From: Streptomyces cadmiisoli
GTDB lineage: Bacteria > Actinomycetota > Actinomycetes > Streptomycetales > Streptomycetaceae
NCBI RefSeq assembly: GCF_003261055.1
Contig: NZ_CP030073.1
Location: 8,370,001-8,434,000 of the forward strand
DNA length: 64,000 nucleotides
Direction of reading: 5' to 3'
The first letter of the stretch is position 1; each line of letters opens with the position of its first letter. Both the position numbers and the translations under genes were made by a program. Shown here one piece after another: positions 39,414-50,381 of this stretch. Under the pieces are notes generated by a model. That model ran no database searches. It worked only from the letters and a program-made list of their open reading frames with translations, and was not told the DNA's origin.

Positions 39414-41687
39414 TCATGGGGCGAGATGTGCGGCGAGGAACTTCTGGACGGCGGGCAGCACGGCGATGTGGTCGTGGCCCGTGCCGGGGACGGTGTCGAG
39501 TCGCGCGTCGATTCCGTGCGCGATCCAGTTCTCCCGCAGGGCGTTGATGCGGTCGGTGCGGCTGCCGGGCGCCGGGGCGCTTTCGCGTGCGGCGTGGGGC
39601 GGAAGTTCGGCGGTGCCGGTGTCCAGCTCGCCGATGATCAGCTGTATCGGGAGGTCACGCAGAGCGGCCGGGTCCGTTGTGATGCCGAACTGCTCGTCGG
39701 TGTCCGCTGTCCCCTGCCACCAGGTGGTCGTCGGTTCCAGGAGGGTGACGTGGCTGGGCGCGCCGACGGACAGGGACGCCAGCCGGTCGGGATGGAGATA
39801 GGCGAACCGGTGGGCGAACTGGCCCCCGCCGGAGAAGCCGTGCAGGTGGAAGCGGTCGGTGCGTACGTGCCAGCGCGCGGCGGCCTCCTCGACCATGTCC
39901 AGCAGGACCTCGTCGGAGCGGAATCCGGCAGGGGACAGGAGTTTGTAGCTGTCGACGTCGTTGGGGCCGGTGATCCCGGCGGGGAAGAGGGGAGCGAGGA
40001 CGACGCAGTCGTGCCGCTCGGCGAAGCCGGCGAAGGCGTCGCGGAGGGTTTCGACGCGGCGCCGGGTCCCGTGCACGGCGACCAGCAGGGGGCGGGGCGG
40101 GCCGTCGGGGCGGTGGTGCTTCGGAACGTAGAGGCAGTAGGAGAAGCGCGGGTCGCGGGTGAGGGCGAACAGCGCGGTGGGGCCGGTCAGGAAGGACACG
40201 CCGGGGTGGCCGGCGGGCAGGTCCCAGGGGGATATGGGGCGTTCGGCAGTCATGGGGAGTGGTCCGTCGCCCTGAGGAGGTCCGTCAGGATCCACCGGTG
40301 AGGCATCCGGCGACGTCAGTGCCGTGGAGCGGTCGGCCAGGCACACCACGAGGAACACGCCTGCCACGCCGACGAGCAGCCAGGCCAGTCCGTGCAGTGC
40401 GCCGCTGGTGGCGCCGTCGCGGAAGAAGGCGGCGATCGCCGCGGAGGCCAGCAGCGCGCCGAGATACATGAAGGTGCGCAACAGCCCGGCCGACGAGCCC
40501 ATCCGGGCCGGATCCGCCTGCTCGTAGAGGGCGTTCTGGTTGGCCAGGCCGATGAGCCCCTGGGGAATGCCGGCGACCGCGCAGATCACGACGAGCAGCC
40601 AGAGCGGAGTGCGGTCGGTGAGCATGAACAGTGCCGAGCAGGTGAGGAGTTGCGCGGCTGCACCCACGAGGAGTTTTGCGCGTACCCGCCCGCGGCGCCC
40701 GGTGAGGACGGTGACCACGATGGCCGTCGCAGACATCGGCAGCACCAGCAGCCCGGACTGCGCGGGGTTCAGGCCCCGCCCGTCCTGTAACCACTGGGTG
40801 TAGCCGTAGATCAAGGCGTACGACGTGGTGTGGGCGAGGAGTTGCCGTACGAAGGTGGCCAGCAGCGGCGCGTTGCCGCCGAGGACACGCAGGTCGATGA
40901 ACGGATCGCCCGCGCCCAGTTCACGGCGGACGAACACCGCTCCCGCCGCCAGGCCGAGCACCGGAAGGTACCAGTGCCGGGCGACGGGATCCATCAGGAA
41001 GAACATGAACGCGGTGAGGGATCCGGCGAACAACAGCATGCCTGCCGCGTCCGTGCGGATCGTCCCCTTCGAGGGGACCGTACGCGGCAGCCACAGCGCG
41101 CCCAGCACGAGACAGACGAGCGACAGCGGCACATTGATCGCGAAGATCGCCTGCCAGCCGCCGGCGCCGACTAGCAGTCCGCCCAGCGGCGGCCCGGCCA
41201 CGACGATGGCCTGGTTGGAGATCGACAGGGCGGCGAGCACGCCACCCGGGCCCTTCAGGCCGGTGCGTTCGGACTCGGACCTCAGCAGGGACATGGACGC
41301 CGGAAAGGCAGCCGAGGTGCCGAAGCCGAGGAGCACTCGGGAGGCGACCAGTACCCACAGGTTCGGTGCGAGTGCGCCGAGCAGACCCGCGACGCCGACC
41401 GTGGTGGTACCCGCCAGGTAGAGGCGGCGCGGCCCGAACGCGTCGACGAGCCGGCCGACGACCGGCTGGCCGACGGCTGTGGCGAGGTAGAGCCCCGAGA
41501 CGAGCCAGGCTGTCTGCGAGGGCGGAACGCCGAACGCGTGCCCGATCGGAATCAGCGCGACCGCGAGCATCGAGGAGTTGACCGGGTTGAGCGCCGAGCC
41601 GACGAGCAGTGGTGCGACCAGGCGTCGGTCGATGCCGTTCGGACGCGCCGCGCGCGGCCGGCGCAGGCAGCCGGCGCGGCCGGTCAC
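39414..41687 (-). CDS. MFS transporter fused to a C-terminal alpha/beta hydrolase
   Basis: About 757 residues in one frame. Residues 1 to about 455 are a DHA-type drug transporter (PPSQTAWLVSGLYLATAVGQPVVGRLVDAFGPRRLYL, the motif A region). After a linker rich in Asp and Pro, the last 279 residues are an esterase/lipase domain with the nucleophile in HLHGFSGGGQFAHRFAY, Asp in IIGELDTGT and His in GTGHDHIA. An internal ATG at 40253 could start the hydrolase alone, but it has no ribosome binding site. GTG 41687 overlaps the MarR stop as GTGA. Confidence 0.75.
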   Translation of the reverse strand: MTGRAGCLRRPRAARPNGIDRRLVAPLLVGSALNPVNSSMLAVALIPIGHAFGVPPSQTAWLVSGLYLATAVGQPVVGRLVDAFGPRRLYLAGTTTVGVAGLLGALAPNLWVLVASRVLLGFGTSAAFPASMSLLRSESERTGLKGPGGVLAALSISNQAIVVAGPPLGGLLVGAGGWQAIFAINVPLSLVCLVLGALWLPRTVPSKGTIRTDAAGMLLFAGSLTAFMFFLMDPVARHWYLPVLGLAAGAVFVRRELGAGDPFIDLRVLGGNAPLLATFVRQLLAHTTSYALIYGYTQWLQDGRGLNPAQSGLLVLPMSATAIVVTVLTGRRGRVRAKLLVGAAAQLLTCSALFMLTDRTPLWLLVVICAVAGIPQGLIGLANQNALYEQADPARMGSSAGLLRTFMYLGALLASAAIAAFFRDGATSGALHGLAWLLVGVAGVFLVVCLADRSTALTSPDASPVDPDGPPQGDGPLPMTAERPISPWDLPAGHPGVSFLTGPTALFALTRDPRFSYCLYVPKHHRPDGPPRPLLVAVHGTRRRVETLRDAFAGFAERHDCVVLAPLFPAGITGPNDVDSYKLLSPAGFRSDEVLLDMVEEAAARWHVRTDRFHLHGFSGGGQFAHRFAYLHPDRLASLSVGAPSHVTLLEPTTTWWQGTADTDEQFGITTDPAALRDLPIQLIIGELDTGTAELPPHAARESAPAPGSRTDRINALRENWIAHGIDARLDTVPGTGHDHIAVLPAVQKFLAAHLAP

Positions 41688-42163
41688 GCCTGTGCCACCT
41701 TGTCGAGCAGGGCCATGGCTGTGATGACGGCCCGAACCTCCTCCTCGGTGCCGTTTTCCTGCAAGGCGCGGGCGAGCCACGCCTGACGGGCCAGGCGGTC
41801 GCCCTGGCGCCGCTCTCGGCCCCGCTCCGTCAGCGAGACGAGCTGCCGGCGCCCGTCGTGAGGGTCCTGGCTGCGCGTGACGTGTCCCGCCTCTTCCAGG
41901 GCGAGGACGGTCTTGGCCATGGACTGCGGCCGTACGCCCTCGGCGGCGGCGAGATCACTGGCGGAGGCGGCCCCGTTCTTGGCGAGACGCCGCAGCACGG
42001 AGGCCTGCGACGGTGAGAGTTCCCGCTCTGCGCCGGAGGACGGGTCGGGTCCTTCGATGCCTTCCAGGGCCTGCAGTCTGCGGCGGAGGCGACCTGCCAC
42101 CACCCAGATGTCGCCGGCCGCCTGCAAGGCGGCGTCCGTCAGGGGCTGTTGGGCCTCGGTCAT
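41684..42163 (-). CDS. MarR-family regulator
   Basis: A 159-residue winged-helix protein: LSPSQASVLRRLAKNGAASASDLAAAEGV, RPQSMAKTVLALEEAGHVTR and the wing DPHDGRRQLVSLTERGRE with the DxRR motif. Translationally coupled to the MFS-hydrolase gene. A long imperfect inverted repeat starts eight bases upstream of its start codon, so autoregulation of the two-gene operon is likely. Effector unknown, presumably the drug handled by the transporter. Confidence 0.88.
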   Translation of the reverse strand: MTEAQQPLTDAALQAAGDIWVVAGRLRRRLQALEGIEGPDPSSGAERELSPSQASVLRRLAKNGAASASDLAAAEGVRPQSMAKTVLALEEAGHVTRSQDPHDGRRQLVSLTERGRERRQGDRLARQAWLARALQENGTEEEVRAVITAMALLDKVAQA

Positions 42164-42331: not shown

Positions 42332-43570
42332 TTACGACGTGATGCGGCCGGTGGCGAAGTACGCCCGGCACACGGTGCCGTCGAAGTCGGTGGCGATCTG
42401 GAGCACCCGGCTGCCGTCGGCCGAGGGCAGGAGCGGGGAGCTGTAGTTCTGGCAGTAGTTCACTTCGGGGTTCGGGACGGTCACCGGCGCGGCGGTCTCA
42501 CTCCATGGCCCGCTGCCGTTCCGCGTGTTGGTGAGGACGGTCCGGCCGCTGCCCGCGGCGGGGGTGCCGTCGCGGTTCAGCAGGCGCTGTCCGATCAGCA
42601 GGATCCGTCCGTCGGGTCCGCCGCCGGGCGTGGGAGCCCAGGCGATGGTCGGGGCGGCACGGAAGTACCTGCCGTCGGCGGTCTCGGGCCGGATCCCGAG
42701 CGAGGCCGGGTCGCCCCAGTTCCAGCCGTCGGCGGAGGTCCGGTAGTGCACCACGCACTGGTACTGGCCGCCGGGATTGCAGATCTCGTAGCTCATGAAG
42801 TAGGTGCCGTTCGGCAGCTTCCGCACCACCGGCATGCCCGGCCGGTCGGGTGCCCAACTGCTCGCCACGGTGTTGTGGTGGCCCTCCCAGCGCACGCCGT
42901 CGTAGGTGCGCGCGGCGACGAGCTTCTGGCTGTGGGCGGAGTCGGTCTCGTCGGCGTAGTGGCAGACCAGCGCGCCGTCGGCGGCCACCGAGAACTCCGG
43001 TTCCCACAGGCCGCCCGTGCCGGTGGCCACGGCGCACGAAGACAGGTAGGTCCATGTGCGGCCCACGTCGTTGCTGCGCCAGATCCGCAGGGCCATACGT
43101 CGGTTCTGCTCGTCCTGGCCCGCGGAGGAGGCCCAGAGCAGTGTGCCCGCGCGCAGGGCGCCCACCTGCCGGGGCAGCTCGAACAGCGTGGCGCAGCACA
43201 GGCCTTGCCCTGACGCGGACTCGGGATCGGAGACTCGGCCGACCTCGCGGAACGTGGCTCCGGAGTCGGTGCTCTCGTGGATGGCGCCGATGCCGTTGTT
43301 GCCGTCGAAGGTGACGGCGCCGGCGAGGACGCGCCCGTTGGCGGCACCGTTGTGGGCGAGTCGGACGGCGCGCGGATACAGGCCGGTTCCCTCCCGCAGC
43401 GGGGTACCTGTCGCTGTGGGGGAGTGCGCAGTTGTTGTTGGACGGCCGGTGGCGGTAGCGGGTCGGGATGCGATGGCGGGGGCGGCGAGGGCCAGGCTCA
43501 GTAAGCCGGTCAGGCTGAGCAGCAGGGCGCGTGCTGGGTGCCGAACGGGTCGGCGGCGCAGGATCGACAC
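42332..43570 (-). CDS. Secreted sialidase-fold protein (BNR/Asp-box repeats)
   Basis: A 412-residue protein with GTG start, AAGGAAGG upstream and a signal peptide ending AAPAIASRP. Asp-box-like repeats STDSGATF, SNDVGRTWTY and SADGWNWGDP mark a six-bladed beta propeller. CYS pairs (GLCCATLF, NPGGQYQC, EVNYCQNY) suggest disulfides outside the cell. Such proteins are exo-sialidases or exo-arabinanases (GH93-like); the catalytic residues cannot be fixed without an alignment. Transcribed alone; a 12-bp palindrome lies upstream. Confidence 0.8.
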   Translation of the reverse strand: MSILRRRPVRHPARALLLSLTGLLSLALAAPAIASRPATATGRPTTTAHSPTATGTPLREGTGLYPRAVRLAHNGAANGRVLAGAVTFDGNNGIGAIHESTDSGATFREVGRVSDPESASGQGLCCATLFELPRQVGALRAGTLLWASSAGQDEQNRRMALRIWRSNDVGRTWTYLSSCAVATGTGGLWEPEFSVAADGALVCHYADETDSAHSQKLVAARTYDGVRWEGHHNTVASSWAPDRPGMPVVRKLPNGTYFMSYEICNPGGQYQCVVHYRTSADGWNWGDPASLGIRPETADGRYFRAAPTIAWAPTPGGGPDGRILLIGQRLLNRDGTPAAGSGRTVLTNTRNGSGPWSETAAPVTVPNPEVNYCQNYSSPLLPSADGSRVLQIATDFDGTVCRAYFATGRITS

Positions 43571-43763: not shown

Positions 43764-44744
43764 TTAGAGGAGGGCGCCTGATGCCGGGTCGGACTCGACC
43801 TTCGGGTGGTGCAGCCGCCCGGGAAGCCGTGCGGCGAGGAAGTCGATCAGTCGGCTGACGCGTCGCGGGACGTGTACGTCGTCCTCGACCAGCGCGTAGA
43901 TGTCGGCGGACGGCGTCGGGATGTGCGGCAGCACATGGACGAGTTCCCCGCGGTCGAGATGCGGGCGGATGTGCCACTCCGACCGCATGATCACTCCCCG
44001 TCCCTCCAGGGCCCAGCCCGTCACCACGTCACCGTCGTTGCTCGACAGGCCGCCGTGGACCCGCAGATGACGAGGGCTTGCGGCATCACCGAAGCGCCAG
44101 AGCGCGAAATCGCTCTCGTTCTCGCGCAGCACGATGCAGTTGTGGCCGGCCAGGTCCTCGATGCTTGCGGGGGCGCCGTGCCGGGCGAGATACGAGGGTG
44201 CCGCGCACGGCAGACGTCGGTTCTCGGCCAGGCGGCGCATCCTCAGGGAGGAGTCGGGCGGTGTGCCCACGTGTACGGCCACGTCGAACTCCCGCCGGTG
44301 GGGCCGCAGCGGGAGGTCGGAGGTCTGCAGCCTCACGTGCAGTTCGGGGTGGGCCTCCGCGAACTCGCCGAGCAGGGGGGCGATGTGTGCGCGTCCGAGG
44401 CCGAGGGTGGCCTCGACGACCAGGGATCCGCGCAGGCGGTCCGAGCGGTCGGTGACCGAGTCCTCCAGCTCGCGCACCTGGTCGAGGATCGCCTCGACGC
44501 GCGCCGCGTAGAGCTTGCCTTCCGAGGTCAGGACGAGCCGGCGGGCGCCTCGCTGCACGAGCCGGACGTCCAGCCGGCGTTCGAGCGCGCTGAGCCGCTT
44601 GCTGACGACGGGCAGAGAGCATCCGAGTTCCCGCGACGCGGCGGTGAGGGTCTCGCTGGAGGCGACCACCCGGAAGAACTCCAGGTCGTCCAGGGACGAG
44701 CGGTTCCTGCCGCCCCGCTGCCCGGGAGGGCGGATGCTTTCCAT
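43764..44744 (-). CDS. LysR-family regulator
   Basis: A 326-residue LysR protein with the helix-turn-helix in LEFFRVVASSETLTAASRELGCSLPVVSKRLSALERRL, split here as helix and recognition helix (SLPVVSKRLSALE), and a periplasmic-binding-like effector domain. It resembles the DmlR/TtuA subgroup that controls D-malate or tartrate genes, which fits the divergent tartrate dehydrogenase-like gene 155 bases away. Confidence 0.88.
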   Translation of the reverse strand: MESIRPPGQRGGRNRSSLDDLEFFRVVASSETLTAASRELGCSLPVVSKRLSALERRLDVRLVQRGARRLVLTSEGKLYAARVEAILDQVRELEDSVTDRSDRLRGSLVVEATLGLGRAHIAPLLGEFAEAHPELHVRLQTSDLPLRPHRREFDVAVHVGTPPDSSLRMRRLAENRRLPCAAPSYLARHGAPASIEDLAGHNCIVLRENESDFALWRFGDAASPRHLRVHGGLSSNDGDVVTGWALEGRGVIMRSEWHIRPHLDRGELVHVLPHIPTPSADIYALVEDDVHVPRRVSRLIDFLAARLPGRLHHPKVESDPASGALL

Positions 44745-44826
44745 GAGCGAAAGGCTACCTTGCCCGCCGTGGTCTTGTAACAGGCATAGCCGCTGGCCAG
44801 GGTGGAGCCCAGGTCGAACGTCGGCC

Positions 44827-44849
44827 GATGCCCCCGTCCGAGGGGCATC
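44827..44849. promoter_or_regulatory. Inverted repeat in the LysR/decarboxylase intergenic region
   Basis: GATGCCCC (44827-44834) and GGGGCATC (44842-44849) form an 8-bp perfect inverted repeat with a 7-base spacer, 50 bases upstream of the dehydrogenase start. A LysR recognition site is plausible; the spacing is not the classical T-N11-A. Confidence 0.5.
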
Positions 44850-44899
44850 CCGCTTCACCCGCCGACGCAACAAGGTCACGAGTGCTGAGGAGTGGTTTC

Positions 44900-46030
44900 G
44901 TGCCGCAGAGTTATCGGATCGCGGCGGTCCCGGGCGACGGGATCGGCCGCGAGGTCGTCCCCGAGGGGCTGAGGTGCCTGCGAGCCGCCGCGGAGGTGCA
45001 CGGGTTCGCGCTGGATGTCACCGAGTTCGACTTCGCCAGCGCCGACTACTGGTCGCGGCACGGTGCGATGCTCCCCGACGACTGGCGGACCCGGCTCGGC
45101 ACGTTCGACGCGATCTTCTTCGGCGCGGTCGGCTGGCCCGAGGTGGTGCCGGACCACGTCTCGTTGTGGGGCAGCCTCCTGCAACTGCGCCGGGGCTTCG
45201 ACCAGTACGTCAATCTCCGTCCGGTGCGGCTGCTGCGCGGCGTACGCAGTCCTCTGCGCGATCACCGTCCCGGCGACATCGACTTCTACGTCGTACGGGA
45301 GAACACCGAGGGCGAGTACTCCAGCATCGGCGGCCGGATCTTCGAGGGAACCGACCGCGAGACGGTCATGCAGGAGACGGTCATGACCCGGATCGGAGTC
45401 GACCGTGTGCTGCGCTACGCCTTCGAACTCGCCGCGAGCCGACCGCGCAAGCACCTGACCTGGGCGACGAAGAGCAACGGCATCTCGATCTCCATGCCCT
45501 ACTGGGACGAGCGTGCGGTCGAGATGGCGGCGCGGTATCCCGAAGTGACCGCGGACAAGGACCACATCGACATCCTGGCCGCGAAGTTCGTCCTGCGGCC
45601 CGGCCACTACGACGTCGTCGTCGCCAGCAACCTCTTCGGCGACATCCTCTCCGACCTGGGGCCCGCCTGCACCGGCACGATCGGTATCGCGCCCAGCGCC
45701 AACATCAATCCCGACCGCACCTACCCGAGCCTGTTCGAGCCGGTGCACGGCTCGGCCCCCGACATCGCGGGCCTCGGCATCGCCAACCCGGTCGGGCAGA
45801 TCTGGAGCGGGGCCATGATGCTCGACCACCTCGGTGAGCACGAGGCGGCCGAACACGTCGTGGCCGCGATCGAGAGCGTGCTCGACGAGCAGCCGGAAGT
45901 GGTCACCCCGGACCTCGGCGGCAGGGGCACCACGGTGGGGCTCGGCAAGGCGATCGCGGCCCGGATCGCGGCGGGCCCGGCACCCGTGGACGTCGGTGCC
46001 TCGGCCGAGGAGGCGACCACGGCGTCATGA
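44900..46030 (+). CDS. Tartrate/D-malate dehydrogenase family oxidative decarboxylase
   Basis: A 376-residue isocitrate/isopropylmalate dehydrogenase-fold enzyme with GAGGAG seven bases before GTG 44900. AAVPGDGIGREVVPEGLRCL, LLQLRRGFDQYVNLRPVRLL, FYVVRENTEGEYSSIGGR, ATKSNGISISMPYWDE and NLFGDILSDLGPACTGTIGIAPSANINP follow the TtuC/DmlA subgroup, which oxidises and decarboxylates D-malate or tartrate using NAD+ and a divalent metal. First gene of the operon with an MFS carrier, a 2-hydroxyacid dehydrogenase and AtuA/DUF4387 proteins. Confidence 0.9.
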   Translation: MPQSYRIAAVPGDGIGREVVPEGLRCLRAAAEVHGFALDVTEFDFASADYWSRHGAMLPDDWRTRLGTFDAIFFGAVGWPEVVPDHVSLWGSLLQLRRGFDQYVNLRPVRLLRGVRSPLRDHRPGDIDFYVVRENTEGEYSSIGGRIFEGTDRETVMQETVMTRIGVDRVLRYAFELAASRPRKHLTWATKSNGISISMPYWDERAVEMAARYPEVTADKDHIDILAAKFVLRPGHYDVVVASNLFGDILSDLGPACTGTIGIAPSANINPDRTYPSLFEPVHGSAPDIAGLGIANPVGQIWSGAMMLDHLGEHEAAEHVVAAIESVLDEQPEVVTPDLGGRGTTVGLGKAIAARIAAGPAPVDVGASAEEATTAS

Positions 46031-46281
46031 CCGTTCCGCTTCCGGGTCTCGCCGACCTTGAGGCCGGCCTGCCCGAAGGAGTCCCGGACACGGTCCGAAC
46101 CAGGCCGCCGATGCCCTGACCTCGTCGTCGGCACCGACAGCGACGGGGCCCGCGTCCCGCGGACGCCCGAGCCGAGCCCGAGGCGGCTGCCACACGGTGT
46201 GACCGCCATCACCGCCTCCGCAACCAGCAGCACTTCATCCGACAGCCGCCGGACCGGCGGCAGCGCGAAGGGACGACCCCT

Positions 46282-47571
46282 ATGACGACGACGTCGGCAG
46301 GGCAGCGCTCACGCACCCGGCGCATCACGTTCCTGGTCGCTCTCGCGGTCTTCGCGCAGGAGTCGACCTGGAACTTCTACGAGTCGCAAGTCCCGCCGCT
46401 GCTGCGGGAGCACATCGCCAGCGCGGCCCTGGTGGGCCTCCTGATGGGCATGGACAACCTGCTGGGGATCTTCATCCAGCCCTGGATCGGCAACCGCTCC
46501 GACCGCACCCGGACGTCGTGGGGCCGGCGCATTCCCTACCTCGTGGCGGGGATGCCCGTGGCCGCCGCACTGTTCGTCGCCATCCCGCACACCGCGGCGT
46601 CCCTGCCGTCCCTGATCGCGGTGATGTTCGCCTACGCCCTCGTCGCCAACACCTTCAAACCGATCGCCGAAGCGCTCGTACCGGACTTCATCGCGCCCGA
46701 GCGACGCAGCCGGGCCAACGCCGCGGTCAAGATCGCCTCCAGTCTCACCACGATCGTGGCCGCGCTGATCAGCATCTTCCTCGTCGACGACCATCCGCAC
46801 ATCGCCTTCGCGATCCCCGCGGCCATCATGCTGCTGTCGATGGGCGTGCTCGCGGCCACCGTGCGCGACAGCCGCTCTCCCGCCTACCAGGCCGTGCTGG
46901 CGGAGAGTCAGCAGGAGACGGCTCGCCCGGCGAAGTCACGCGTGCGCGACATCCTGGCCCAGATCGTCAAGGACGCCGACCGCAGCCGGCTGCTGCTCCT
47001 CGTCGCCATTCTGCTCTTCGGTTGTGCCTGGGCCGCGTCCCGGTCGCTGGTGACGCCGTACGGCATGGAGGCCCTCGACATGTCCCGCGGCGACGCCGGC
47101 GGCCTGACGCTGCCGAGCGGCGTCGCCTTCCTCCTGGCCGCCTACCCGGCGGCCATGCTCGCCGAGCGGTACGGACGCCTTCGCGCCATGGCGGTGGGCA
47201 TGTCGGTCTTCGCCGCCGCCCTGATCCTGGGCACGCTCGTCCAGACGCCCACCGGTACCGTCGTGGCGCTGTGCGTCGCGGCGGCCGGAGCGAGCAGCTT
47301 CCTCGTCAACGCCGTCGTCGTCCTGTGGAACCTCGCCCCGTCGGCCCACGTTTTCGGGACGTACGCCGGCCTGTACACCGTCAGTTGGGCGGGCGGCGGC
47401 TTCCTGGGCCCGGCCCTGGTCGGCGCGATGGTCGACGTCAACGGCTGGCCCCTGATGCTCGTCGACATCGCCGTCATCGCCTCGCTCGCCCTTGTCGTCA
47501 TCGCCAGGATCCACAGGCTCCAGCGGCGAGCGGCCACGGCCGTCACGAAGCAGCCGACCACACCGCTGTGA
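46282..47571 (+). CDS. MFS transporter
   Basis: A 429-residue, 12-helix major facilitator with GAAGGGA before ATG 46282. The loop GIFIQPWIGNRSDRTRTSWGRRIPYLV is typical of the glycoside/sugar-type branch (SLC45/GPH-like), and NTFKPIAEALVPDFIAPERRSRAN follows. It lies 251 bases after the decarboxylase and 47 bases before the hydroxyacid dehydrogenase, so it probably imports the substrate of this operon. The 251-base gap upstream shows no gene. Confidence 0.87.
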   Translation: MTTTSAGQRSRTRRITFLVALAVFAQESTWNFYESQVPPLLREHIASAALVGLLMGMDNLLGIFIQPWIGNRSDRTRTSWGRRIPYLVAGMPVAAALFVAIPHTAASLPSLIAVMFAYALVANTFKPIAEALVPDFIAPERRSRANAAVKIASSLTTIVAALISIFLVDDHPHIAFAIPAAIMLLSMGVLAATVRDSRSPAYQAVLAESQQETARPAKSRVRDILAQIVKDADRSRLLLLVAILLFGCAWAASRSLVTPYGMEALDMSRGDAGGLTLPSGVAFLLAAYPAAMLAERYGRLRAMAVGMSVFAAALILGTLVQTPTGTVVALCVAAAGASSFLVNAVVVLWNLAPSAHVFGTYAGLYTVSWAGGGFLGPALVGAMVDVNGWPLMLVDIAVIASLALVVIARIHRLQRRAATAVTKQPTTPL

Positions 47572-47618
47572 GCCCGCCACCCGGCCCGCCCAGCACAGCA
47601 GCCAGAAATGAGGACCGT

Positions 47619-48605
47619 GTGCCCCGCATCCTGATCACGACGGACCACCTGCGACCCGGTGACGAGACCGACCGCCACCTTCGCGCCCACGGCCACACGA
47701 CGGTCCACTCCCCGCTGATCGGCCGCCGAGACCCCGAAGACCTCGTCAAGGCCCTCGACGGCATCGACGCGGCACTCGTCGGACACGAGCCCCTGACCGC
47801 CGACGTGCTGTCCCGGGCGTCCCGGCTGCGCGCCGTCGTCCGCACCGGCGTGGGCTACGACACGATCGACGTCGTCGCCGCGGGCCGGCTGGGCATCTCG
47901 GTGAGCAACCTGCCGGGGGTCAACGCCAACGCGGTGGCCGAGTACACGATCGGTCTGCTGCTGGCGGCGGCGCGCGGACTGGTGCAGAGCGCGACGGGAG
48001 TGGCGGCCGGCGGCTGGCCCAGGGACGACGGCCGCGAACTGCGCGGGTCGACGCTCGGCCTGCTCGGGTACGGAGCGGCAGCGCGGGCCGTCGTTCCCCT
48101 GGCGCAGTCGTTCGGGATGCGTCTGCTGTGCACCACCGGAGTGCCCGAGGACGAGCGAACCGATGCGTCGGTGAGCTTCGTCGACCTTCCGGAACTGCTC
48201 GCGGCCGCCGACTATGTCTCCGTGCACACCGCCCTGACGGAGCGCTCACGCGGTCTCCTCGGCGCCGCGGCCTTCCGCCGGATGAAGCCGACGGCGGTCC
48301 TGGTCAACACCGCGCGAGGAGCGGTGGTTGACGAGCGCGCCCTCGCCGATGCCGTGCGCACGGGGCAGATCGCCGGGGCGGCCCTCGACGTGGTGAGCGA
48401 GGAGCCGCTCGCCGCGGACAGCCCGCTGCGCGGCGTCGAGGGCATCGTCGTCTACTCCCATCTCGCCGGACAGACCACCGAAGCCCGCGCGGCCGCCGGT
48501 CTCCAGGGGGCGGCCGAGGTGGTGGCTGCCCTCGCCGGGCGCCCCCGGTTCGCCGTCAACGCTCACCTGCTGCCCCGCCCGCCCGGCTCCGGCGGGACGG
48601 GGTGA
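47619..48605 (+). CDS. D-2-hydroxyacid dehydrogenase (phosphoglycerate dehydrogenase-like)
   Basis: About 328 residues from GTG 47619 with GAGGA upstream. The NAD loop LGLLGYGAAARAVVPLAQ, the catalytic Arg in LVNTARGAVVDE, Glu in VVSEEPLA and His in VYSHLAGQTTEA are all in place. The histidine context (SHxxGxT) is normal. It would interconvert a 2-keto and a 2-hydroxy acid. The stop overlaps a possible upstream start of the AtuA-family gene. Confidence 0.88.
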   Translation: MPRILITTDHLRPGDETDRHLRAHGHTTVHSPLIGRRDPEDLVKALDGIDAALVGHEPLTADVLSRASRLRAVVRTGVGYDTIDVVAAGRLGISVSNLPGVNANAVAEYTIGLLLAAARGLVQSATGVAAGGWPRDDGRELRGSTLGLLGYGAAARAVVPLAQSFGMRLLCTTGVPEDERTDASVSFVDLPELLAAADYVSVHTALTERSRGLLGAAAFRRMKPTAVLVNTARGAVVDERALADAVRTGQIAGAALDVVSEEPLAADSPLRGVEGIVVYSHLAGQTTEARAAAGLQGAAEVVAALAGRPRFAVNAHLLPRPPGSGGTG

Positions 48606-48655
48606 ACACCCGACCCACCCACATCCACGCACCGACTGTGAGACGGAAGAGGAAC

Positions 48656-50041
48656 ATGGACAACGAACCGGTCGACTTCGTCACGGTCCTCGCGCCGAAC
48701 GGCATGCTCGGCGCGGGCTTCCCCGAGGCCACCATCGAGCGGGGTCTGCGACTCGGCGCCGATGTGATCTCCGTCGACGGGGGGAGCACCGACTCCGGCC
48801 CCTACTACCTCGGCGCGTCGCAGCCCAAGACCACGCGCGCGGCGGTCGCCCGCGACCTTCGCATCCTGCTGAAAGCGGCAGCGGGGGCCGGAATTCCGCT
48901 GATCGTGGGCTCGTGCGGGACCAGTGGCACCGACGACGGGGTCGACTGGGTCGCGGACATCGTCGCCGACGTCCAAGCCGACGAAGGGCTGGAGCTGCGC
49001 GTGGCGCGGATCTACAGCGAACAGGACGCCGGTGAACTGAAGAAGCGCCTGGACGCCGGCCGGATCCACGCCCTGCCTCCTACAGGGGAGCTACGGCCGG
49101 AAACGCTGGACAACTGCACACACATCGTCGGCGTGATGGGACACGAGCCGATCGTCGCCGCGCTCGAAGCGGGCGCAGACGTCGTACTGGCAGGCCGCGC
49201 CACCGACACGGCCATCGCCGCCGCCTACCCGCTCATGCGGGGAATGCCCGCGGGGCCGACATGGCACGCAGCCAAAATCATCGAGTGCGGCGGGCAATGC
49301 ACCACCAACCCGCGCGCCGGCGGGGTACTCGCCACCATCGACGCGAACGGCTTCTCCATCGAACCGCTCGACCCGACGGTGGCCTGCACACCGGTCTCGG
49401 TCGCGGCCCACATGCTCTACGAGACCGCGAACCCCTTCGAGATGCGCGAACCCGACGGCACACTGGACGTCCGCGAGGCCGCCTACACCGCTCGCGACGA
49501 CCGCACGGTGCGAGTGGAGGGTTCGCAGTTCCACGTCGCCGAACAGCACACCATCAAGCTGGAAGGCGCCCGGATCGCCGGCTACGAGACCATGTCGTTC
49601 ACCGCGATCCGGGACCCGCACATCCTCGCCGACATCGAAGCCTGGGCCGATCTCCTGAGCACCGTGATCAAGCAGAGGGTGGAGCAGACGATCGGCCTTA
49701 GCCAGGACAAGTACGCCTTCGACGTGCGCCTCTACGGCTACAACGCCGTGCTGGGAGACCTCGAACCGGCTCAGGGTGCACCGCGGGAGGTGGGGGTCAT
49801 GCTGCTGGTCAACGCGCCGGACCAGGCCACCGCCACCGCCGTCGCCAAGATCGCCAACCCGTTGATGCTGCACCTGCCGACGGCCGACATGGACTACTTG
49901 CCGAGCCTCGCGTTCGCCACCTCACCCGCCGAGATCGAGCGCGGACCCGCCTACGAGTTCGTGCTCAACCACGTCGTCGACAGCGTCACCCCCACCGACA
50001 TGTTCCGCATCGAATTCGAGGAGGCTGCGCACCATGACTGA
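48656..50041 (+). CDS. AtuA-family protein (DUF1446, acyclic terpene utilisation-like)
   Basis: A 461-residue protein with GAGGA before ATG 48656. ERGLRLGADVISVDGGSTDSGPYYLG, GCGTSGTDDGVDWV-type GSCGTSGTDDGVDW and MGHEPIVAALEAGADVVLAGRATDTAI are hallmark segments of the AtuA family. AtuA belongs to the acyclic terpene (citronellol/geranyl-CoA) pathway, but none of the biotin carboxylase or acyl-CoA genes of that pathway occur here. Paired with a DUF4387 protein by an 8-base overlap, it is more likely a subunit of a hydratase/lyase-type enzyme on hydroxy acids; that is inference. Confidence 0.83.
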   Translation: MDNEPVDFVTVLAPNGMLGAGFPEATIERGLRLGADVISVDGGSTDSGPYYLGASQPKTTRAAVARDLRILLKAAAGAGIPLIVGSCGTSGTDDGVDWVADIVADVQADEGLELRVARIYSEQDAGELKKRLDAGRIHALPPTGELRPETLDNCTHIVGVMGHEPIVAALEAGADVVLAGRATDTAIAAAYPLMRGMPAGPTWHAAKIIECGGQCTTNPRAGGVLATIDANGFSIEPLDPTVACTPVSVAAHMLYETANPFEMREPDGTLDVREAAYTARDDRTVRVEGSQFHVAEQHTIKLEGARIAGYETMSFTAIRDPHILADIEAWADLLSTVIKQRVEQTIGLSQDKYAFDVRLYGYNAVLGDLEPAQGAPREVGVMLLVNAPDQATATAVAKIANPLMLHLPTADMDYLPSLAFATSPAEIERGPAYEFVLNHVVDSVTPTDMFRIEFEEAAHHD

Positions 50042-50381
50042 GACCGGCCCGACCACGCTCGCGGACCTGGCACTCGAGATCCGGTCCAAGAACGCCGGCC
50101 CGTTCTGGGTCACCATGGAGTTGTTCCTGCGCGACGAGGACGGATACCGCGTCGCCGCGGACGAATCGTTCCTCAACGAGCACACGGTCGCCGGGCTCTA
50201 CGGAATCGACGCGGCGCAGATCCAGATGTTCCGTATCCCGTCGCTGCACGTCGTGAAGATCTCCTTCCCCCGCCCCGTCAGCCAGGCCTCGCTCCGCGAC
50301 CGTGACATCCACTCGGGCCAGCACCACGTCCCACTGGCGCTCCTGCCCGTACCCGGTACGGGCAACGTCGTCCGGGAGTGA
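50034..50381 (+). CDS. DUF4387 family protein
   Basis: A 115-residue protein with LADLALEIRSKNAGPFWVTMELFL, the signature start of DUF4387, and DRDIHSGQHHVPLALLPV near the C-terminus with three histidines that could bind metal. DUF4387 proteins are repeatedly encoded next to AtuA-like proteins and probably act with them. The 8-base overlap supports coupled synthesis. Last gene of the operon. Confidence 0.85.
   Translation: MTETGPTTLADLALEIRSKNAGPFWVTMELFLRDEDGYRVAADESFLNEHTVAGLYGIDAAQIQMFRIPSLHVVKISFPRPVSQASLRDRDIHSGQHHVPLALLPVPGTGNVVRE

Follow-up and report, generated by a model that had tools for sequence, protein, structure and literature searches.

Tartrate utilisation systems comprise a TtuC/DmlA-type oxidative decarboxylase and the regulator TtdR. 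In the genome (10.24 Mb) of the soil bacterium Streptomyces cadmiisoli, genes of this type lie close to an adjoining gene pair carrying the family names AtuA and DUF4387, within a 64 kb stretch at positions 8370001-8434000 (hereafter the window). The closest described relative of this pair is CmlAB, a citramalate lyase with solved structures (PDB 9ERQ and 9EVF), among them a structure with ADP and pyruvate, and whose source we judge to be enterobacterial from 92-94% identity to copies in E. coli and Salmonella. We propose, with a probability of roughly 0.6, that AtuA and DUF4387 form a two-subunit, ATP-linked C-C lyase of the CmlAB family that acts independently of coenzyme A (CoA) in a route for the import and breakdown of a hydroxy acid.

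Independent contextual support comes from pairs of this kind that lie beside genes for glutamate mutase, methylaspartate ammonia-lyase and fumarase on one plasmid each of Salmonella and Prevotella and on one E. coli chromosome, and a homologue of the large subunit occurs in 1081 of 5426 complete E. coli genomes. In its sections on this cluster, a 2015 paper (PMC4682846) places a DUF1446 gene downstream of mal, draws a citramalate-cleaving step that was undetected in extracts, and describes as unclear what becomes of (S)-citramalate in the E. coli cluster for glutamate fermentation. The assay as described in those sections lists no ATP, and therefore an ATP-requiring lyase would have been missed. 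Growth conditions or an unexpressed cluster explain the negative result equally well, as the same sections have the cells grown on citrate, acetate or propionate and report that conditions under which the cluster is expressed were not found.

Results

The proteins encoded by AtuA and DUF4387 match the two subunits of CmlAB at near full length, and comparison with the solved relatives gives both of them the fold of this citramalate lyase family. In the window, the two genes overlap, as a preliminary description of this DNA had reported, and they share 8 bases. Neighbourhoods of related genes were mapped in 36 named loci, 22 plasmid loci (of 50 plasmid matches) and 40 genome stretches, leaving 94 for the counts once four duplicates (L102, L103, L132 and L134) had been removed; the two rows of L115 stem from a single broken gene. 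DUF4387 adjoins AtuA in 60 of the 61 copies from AtuA-seeded loci and in all 37 from DUF4387-seeded stretches (97/98 in total), with an overlap of exactly 8 bases in 50 of the 97 pairs and of 4 bases in 20. Two loci are unpaired: L049 has a 228-residue AtuA fragment and lacks DUF4387, whereas L107 has a partial DUF4387 (53 bits), and the examined stretch around it yielded no AtuA.

Alignments were prepared from 94 of the 98 AtuA copies plus CmlA (95 proteins, four fragments dropped) and from 91 of the 97 DUF4387 copies plus CmlB (92 proteins, six with doubtful ends dropped). AtuA residues D46, R181, D184, K207, E210, C211, E256, E303, E378 and H439 are invariant in all 95 sequences, CmlA included, and a glycine loop retains G91 in all 95 and G85 and G88 in 92 each. 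In DUF4387, the invariant residues (92/92) are K19, N20, G22, K75 and D91. The pair is therefore tied to the CmlAB family by homology, fold, pairing, invariant residues and linkage. Three DUF4387 histidines had been suggested earlier to bind a metal. Across the 92 proteins these positions vary, with His at H93 in 59, at H97 in 46 and at H98 in 68, and with Tyr and Gln as frequent replacements, which makes it unlikely that the family works through a histidine metal site. Only among the window's close relatives, in an alignment of 39 members, are H93 and H98 invariant and H97 almost so; there these histidines may still have a clade-specific role.

A tree of 86 proteins, comprising CmlA and 85 of the 94 aligned AtuA sequences (nine close rows thinned), separates a group of 9 rows (100/95), with CmlA and the mal/fumarase loci, from a group of 67 rows (100/95) that contains the window. 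Co-occurrence was scored up to 8.5 kb away, on loci 4 to 20 kb long and with hand-made reference proteins, so that absences are lower bounds. The window's clade has 51 rows, of which one is the window and two stem from a single broken gene. Near AtuA in these rows are a D-2-hydroxyacid dehydrogenase (D2HADH; 46 rows), a major facilitator superfamily (MFS) carrier (43), TtuC (38), GntR (26) and LysR (22). Of the 43 rows with less than 50% identity, 3 have TtuC nearby and 6 have D2HADH, and two of these three distant TtuC genes belong to an adjoining operon of the window type (L025 and L126). In L039 and L114, a different TtuC homologue (55-56% identical; 505 bits and above the family cutoff for the L039 copy) lies between D2HADH and AtuA, which speaks for TtuC as a step of the pathway. 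TtuC and D2HADH are also kept in L101, L104, L106 and L137, where an iron-type ATP-binding cassette importer replaces the MFS carrier; L105 has such an importer and neither enzyme.

The tartrate-type decarboxylase and the carrier on which the hydroxy-acid pathway of the preliminary description relied are thus both present. The window TtuC passes the cutoff for tartrate dehydrogenase (Table 1) and is predicted to act on tartrate or D-malate. In D2HADH, the catalytic Arg/Glu/His residues are presumably present, judged by eye against known motifs; no acidic residue follows the second strand, and the enzyme is therefore probably NADP(H)-dependent.

Further neighbours hint at the origin of the acid. 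Nine loci encode a tannase-like protein directly downstream, secreted as judged by eye (the L030 copy matches DUF6351), six carry an alpha/beta hydrolase gene directly downstream of the pair, and four contain an MmgE/PrpD gene. Taken together, these genes suggest a branched hydroxy di- or tricarboxylate that is freed from an ester or ring. Members of the same hydrolase family also accompany a second type of AtuA-DUF4387 pair (L100, L126 and L130), and the window has one at 39420-40223.

Association with acyl-CoA carboxylase genes, one of the outcomes that the preliminary description named as speaking against its proposal, did not occur (0 of 98 AtuA copies). Its remark that a CoA-carboxylase context is missing also stands: enoyl-CoA hydratase is near 1 of the 98 copies (L116, not the window's L117), and the L116 stretch also reaches a canonical AtuA gene at its edge. 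For the type in which AtuA is fused to a ferredoxin-like domain, carboxylase is annotated beside two of the three plasmid loci read (L169 and L171; not L170). On a haloarchaeal plasmid (L012), genes for a CoA transferase and for a CoA ester lyase lie near the pair, and CoA and CoA-free routes may coexist. On a Spirosoma plasmid (L172:858-3780), a citrate:proton symporter, a short AtuA and a separate 103-residue protein with the canonical small-domain motif are encoded together, and so this locus would represent a third, split AtuA type linked to citrate uptake.

All six genes at the place given in the preliminary description are confirmed by open reading frames and profile matches (Table 1). 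The best named matches of the window AtuA are Streptomyces proteins with 82-86% identity. Of the genomes searched, 12 of 394 from the class and 29 of 392 from the genus (own genome counted) have DUF4387, which makes it a sporadic trait.

Table 1. Features of the locus in window coordinates. Starts preferred by eye are LysR 44744, TtuC GTG 44900, dehydrogenase GTG 47619 and AtuA ATG 48656.
Feature	Position	Strand	Basis
LysR-type regulator, divergent	43764..44744	-	TtdR (L-tartrate regulator) is best NCBIfam match, 193.6 bits, below cutoff 398
Operator-like imperfect inverted repeat TTTCC-N5-CGAAA, overlapping LysR start	44738..44752	.	By-eye alignment reading
Second imperfect inverted repeat CTACCTTGCC ... 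GGCCA(A/G)GGT(A/G)G, LysR-TtuC gap	44755..44805	.	By-eye reading
TtuC, tartrate dehydrogenase type oxidative decarboxylase, 376 aa, GTG start	44900..46030	+	TIGR02089 553.2 bits, cutoff 470.4; 3flk E 8.6e-152
Gap, 251 bases; site of hyuB-hyuA and/or divergent gntR in many relatives	46031..46281	+	
MFS carrier, likely importer (direction predicted)	46282..47571	+	MFS_1 112.5 bits
D-2-hydroxyacid dehydrogenase, 328 aa, GTG start	47619..48605	+	PF00389 and PF02826 both pass their cutoffs
AtuA / CmlA-type lyase large subunit, 461 aa, ATG start	48656..50041	+	PF07287
DUF4387 / CmlB-type lyase small subunit, 115 aa	50034..50381	+	PF14330

The preliminary description took the genes to be one regulated unit, which is doubtful. 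An opposite-strand GntR gene lies directly beside the carrier gene in 22 of 50 clade loci, where the two halves are therefore probably separate units, and the window has its 251-base gap at this place. The window thus appears to carry a trimmed form, with two formerly separate units now joined. By-eye comparison of 15 aligned LysR-TtuC gaps reveals a TTTCC-N5-GGAAA-like repeat and a wider second repeat. The first reads TTTCC-N5-GGAAA in many relatives and is imperfect in the window, with a CGAAA half; a stricter scripted palindrome test flagged it in 2 of the 15 regions (L131 and L136), the window not among them. The first repeat is operator-like, and both are putative regulator sites.

Several other features of these loci were recorded. 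Two AtuA-DUF4387 systems, one of the window type and one of a GntR-MFS-AtuA-DUF4387 type (46-48% identical), lie close together in some members of the genus, namely in L025, L126 and genomes G584 (L100/L102) and G598 (L130/L103). At 39414-41780 (minus strand) of the window, a single 788-residue frame joins an MFS carrier and an alpha/beta hydrolase, whose homologues in L100 are two separate genes. Beside LysR, at 42332-43570 (minus strand), lies a gene for a BNR-repeat-like protein, secreted as judged by eye, that was otherwise seen among the surveyed loci only in L126 (92% over 350 residues).

Discussion

In the proposed route, the MFS carrier would import the acid and LysR would sense it. 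AtuA-DUF4387 would split a citramalate-like substrate, R-C(OH)(COO-)-CH(X)-COO-, yielding a 2-oxo acid together with an acetate-type fragment or acyl phosphate, with R or X larger or more polar than in citramalate. ATP may prime a carboxylate as an acyl phosphate, as suggested by the ADP and pyruvate in the solved relative. D2HADH would then reduce the 2-oxo product, and TtuC would oxidatively decarboxylate a malate- or tartrate-like partner. In relatives, a fuller route could open with the tannase-like protein, the alpha/beta hydrolase or a hydantoinase pair (HyuA-HyuB), which would release the acid from an ester or ring of plant origin; of this fuller route the window would keep the core. 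Hydroxycitrate (yielding acetate and oxaloglycolate) and acids of the 2-benzyltartrate type are candidate substrates, offered as chemistry-based guesses.

The preliminary description thus holds in part. Its CoA-free lyase role for AtuA-DUF4387 gains support from relatives solved as citramalate lyase, and the hydroxy-acid route and the distance from a terpene context are also supported; dehydration by the pair and the histidine metal site as a trait of the family are not. Nor is the pair undescribed, since the structure of a relative with ADP and pyruvate is already public. The key pair is represented by that solved enzyme, and the new part is the tartrate-dehydrogenase-linked branch.

Several observations weigh against assigning the window pair as a CmlAB-type lyase in such a route. 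Its AtuA is only 36% identical to CmlA, and about 35 to 39 fixed differences separate 48 clade members (at least 97% fixed) from nine members of the CmlA group (100%), of which four positions at 219-223 hinge on gap placement (P219 and G222 are shared in another alignment). The G85/G88/G91 loop is a putative nucleotide-binding element only, and the ATP dependence of CmlAB is based on a PDB title, no paper on it having been found. For the window clade, we found no reports of activity, substrate or expression. TtuC is not near 13 of the 51 clade rows (some on short contigs) and may serve a parallel step. Neither tannase-like genes nor hyuA and hyuB are in the window operon, and no convincing remnant of the hydantoinase genes was found in 46031-46281 (best E 0.03). 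CoA-type genes (CaiB, CoA ligase, thiolase or acyl-CoA dehydrogenase) lie near the distant pairs L012, L013, L111 and L133.

The low identity and the fixed differences also argue that citramalate is not the default substrate. A plain citramalate lyase, converting imported (S)- or (R)-citramalate to pyruvate and acetate while TtuC and D2HADH handle D-malate and pyruvate, would fit the family and the invariant residues shared with CmlA. However, the window sits on a separate branch of the tree (100/95 splits), and three gap-free fixed changes (Y to T, P to T and F to A) flank invariant R181 and D184; if these three residues line the pocket, it would be wider and more polar in the window. Moreover, mal or fumarase lies within 8.5 kb in 0 of 51 clade rows, and a methylaspartate/mesaconase context was not found there. 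We consider this alternative unlikely.

The ADP in the solved relative would also suit an enzyme that shares the fold and depends on ATP but catalyses a different step, such as carboxylate activation or a reversed ligation, in partnership with HyuA-HyuB. These proteins match Pfam Hydantoinase_A/B, have 7HK5 as their best PDB match and resemble caprolactamase or N-methylhydantoinase, yet score under the NCBIfam caprolactamase cutoffs. Their genes are near 11 of the 51 clade rows, 10 of them intact, and are also linked in the distant loci L008, L041 and L053. However, they are not nearby in the window or in 40 of the 51 clade rows, where much of the rest is kept, and the pyruvate in the solved relative is a cleavage product; a different step thus has only a small chance of being correct. 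Elsewhere in the genome, two HyuA homologues are only 40% and 34% identical. The eleventh locus (L026:5132-5873) holds a remnant, the start of HyuB and part of HyuA, in apparent ongoing loss. An FAD-binding oxidoreductase gene lies near the pair in L131, L113, L114, L039, L115 and L124, which are loci without hydantoinase genes.

A dehydratase or hydratase acting before oxidation, the other possibility raised in the preliminary description, is highly improbable. Fumarase, MmgE/PrpD and aconitase genes near several relatives fit such chemistry, but these enzymes can themselves hydrate, which would leave cleavage to AtuA-DUF4387, and the solved complex has pyruvate bound and is called a lyase. 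A terpene function through CoA esters, for which the Pfam name and one acetate-lyase label speak, is already contradicted and close to untenable, given the PF07287 scores of the genome's two genes with this domain (92 or 95.8 bits for the window AtuA vs 499 or 503.9 for a canonical AtuA at 5.05 Mb; the genome has one DUF4387 gene), the missing PF23544 domain and the near absence of carboxylase and hydratase neighbours. That label comes from the relevant part of one paper, which calls canonical AtuA an acetate lyase, a chemically similar cut; the part of another paper that treats this step assigns it to LiuE.

Beyond the CmlAB-type lyase proposed here, PF07287 proteins with a small partner (DUF4387 or a fused ferredoxin-like domain) might constitute a superfamily of ATP-linked, CoA-independent lyases that remove acetate-type units from 3-hydroxy acids, terpene AtuA included. 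The window clade would then be a branch for ester-bound plant acids (hydroxycitrate, 2-substituted tartrates), with a lyase product such as oxaloglycolate as the natural substrate of the adjoining tartrate dehydrogenase. We hold this wider scheme to be doubtful on balance; removal of acetate-type units across the superfamily is attractive and unproven.

Many proteins are named 'acyclic terpene utilization AtuA' or DUF4387: of 8000 candidates scored in one search, 5253 were hits, as were 1412 of 1423 in a second. The tie to a solved lyase gives proteins so labelled a likely chemistry, the tartrate-dehydrogenase branch narrows the candidates to a small, testable set of substrates, and the pair has a bearing on the (S)-citramalate gap in the E. 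coli cluster for glutamate fermentation.

Among known systems, CmlAB is like the window pair in both subunits, fold, adjoining gene order and invariant residues, but the window pair has no methylaspartate/mesaconase genes close by and has tartrate dehydrogenase instead. Canonical AtuA shares the large Pfam domain and the G-R-x-x-D and E-C motifs, common to three aligned sequences, and differs in being PF07287 fused to PF23544; in the window the small subunit is split off and CoA pathway genes are absent. DUF4387 and the fused PF23544 region are collinear (P 0.0014-0.0022), yet the hhalign probability is only 13-17%. Tartrate utilisation systems resemble the window in TtuC, which is above the family cutoff, and in LysR, which is closest to TtdR yet under that family's cutoff; to these parts the window adds the lyase pair and a D-2-hydroxyacid dehydrogenase.
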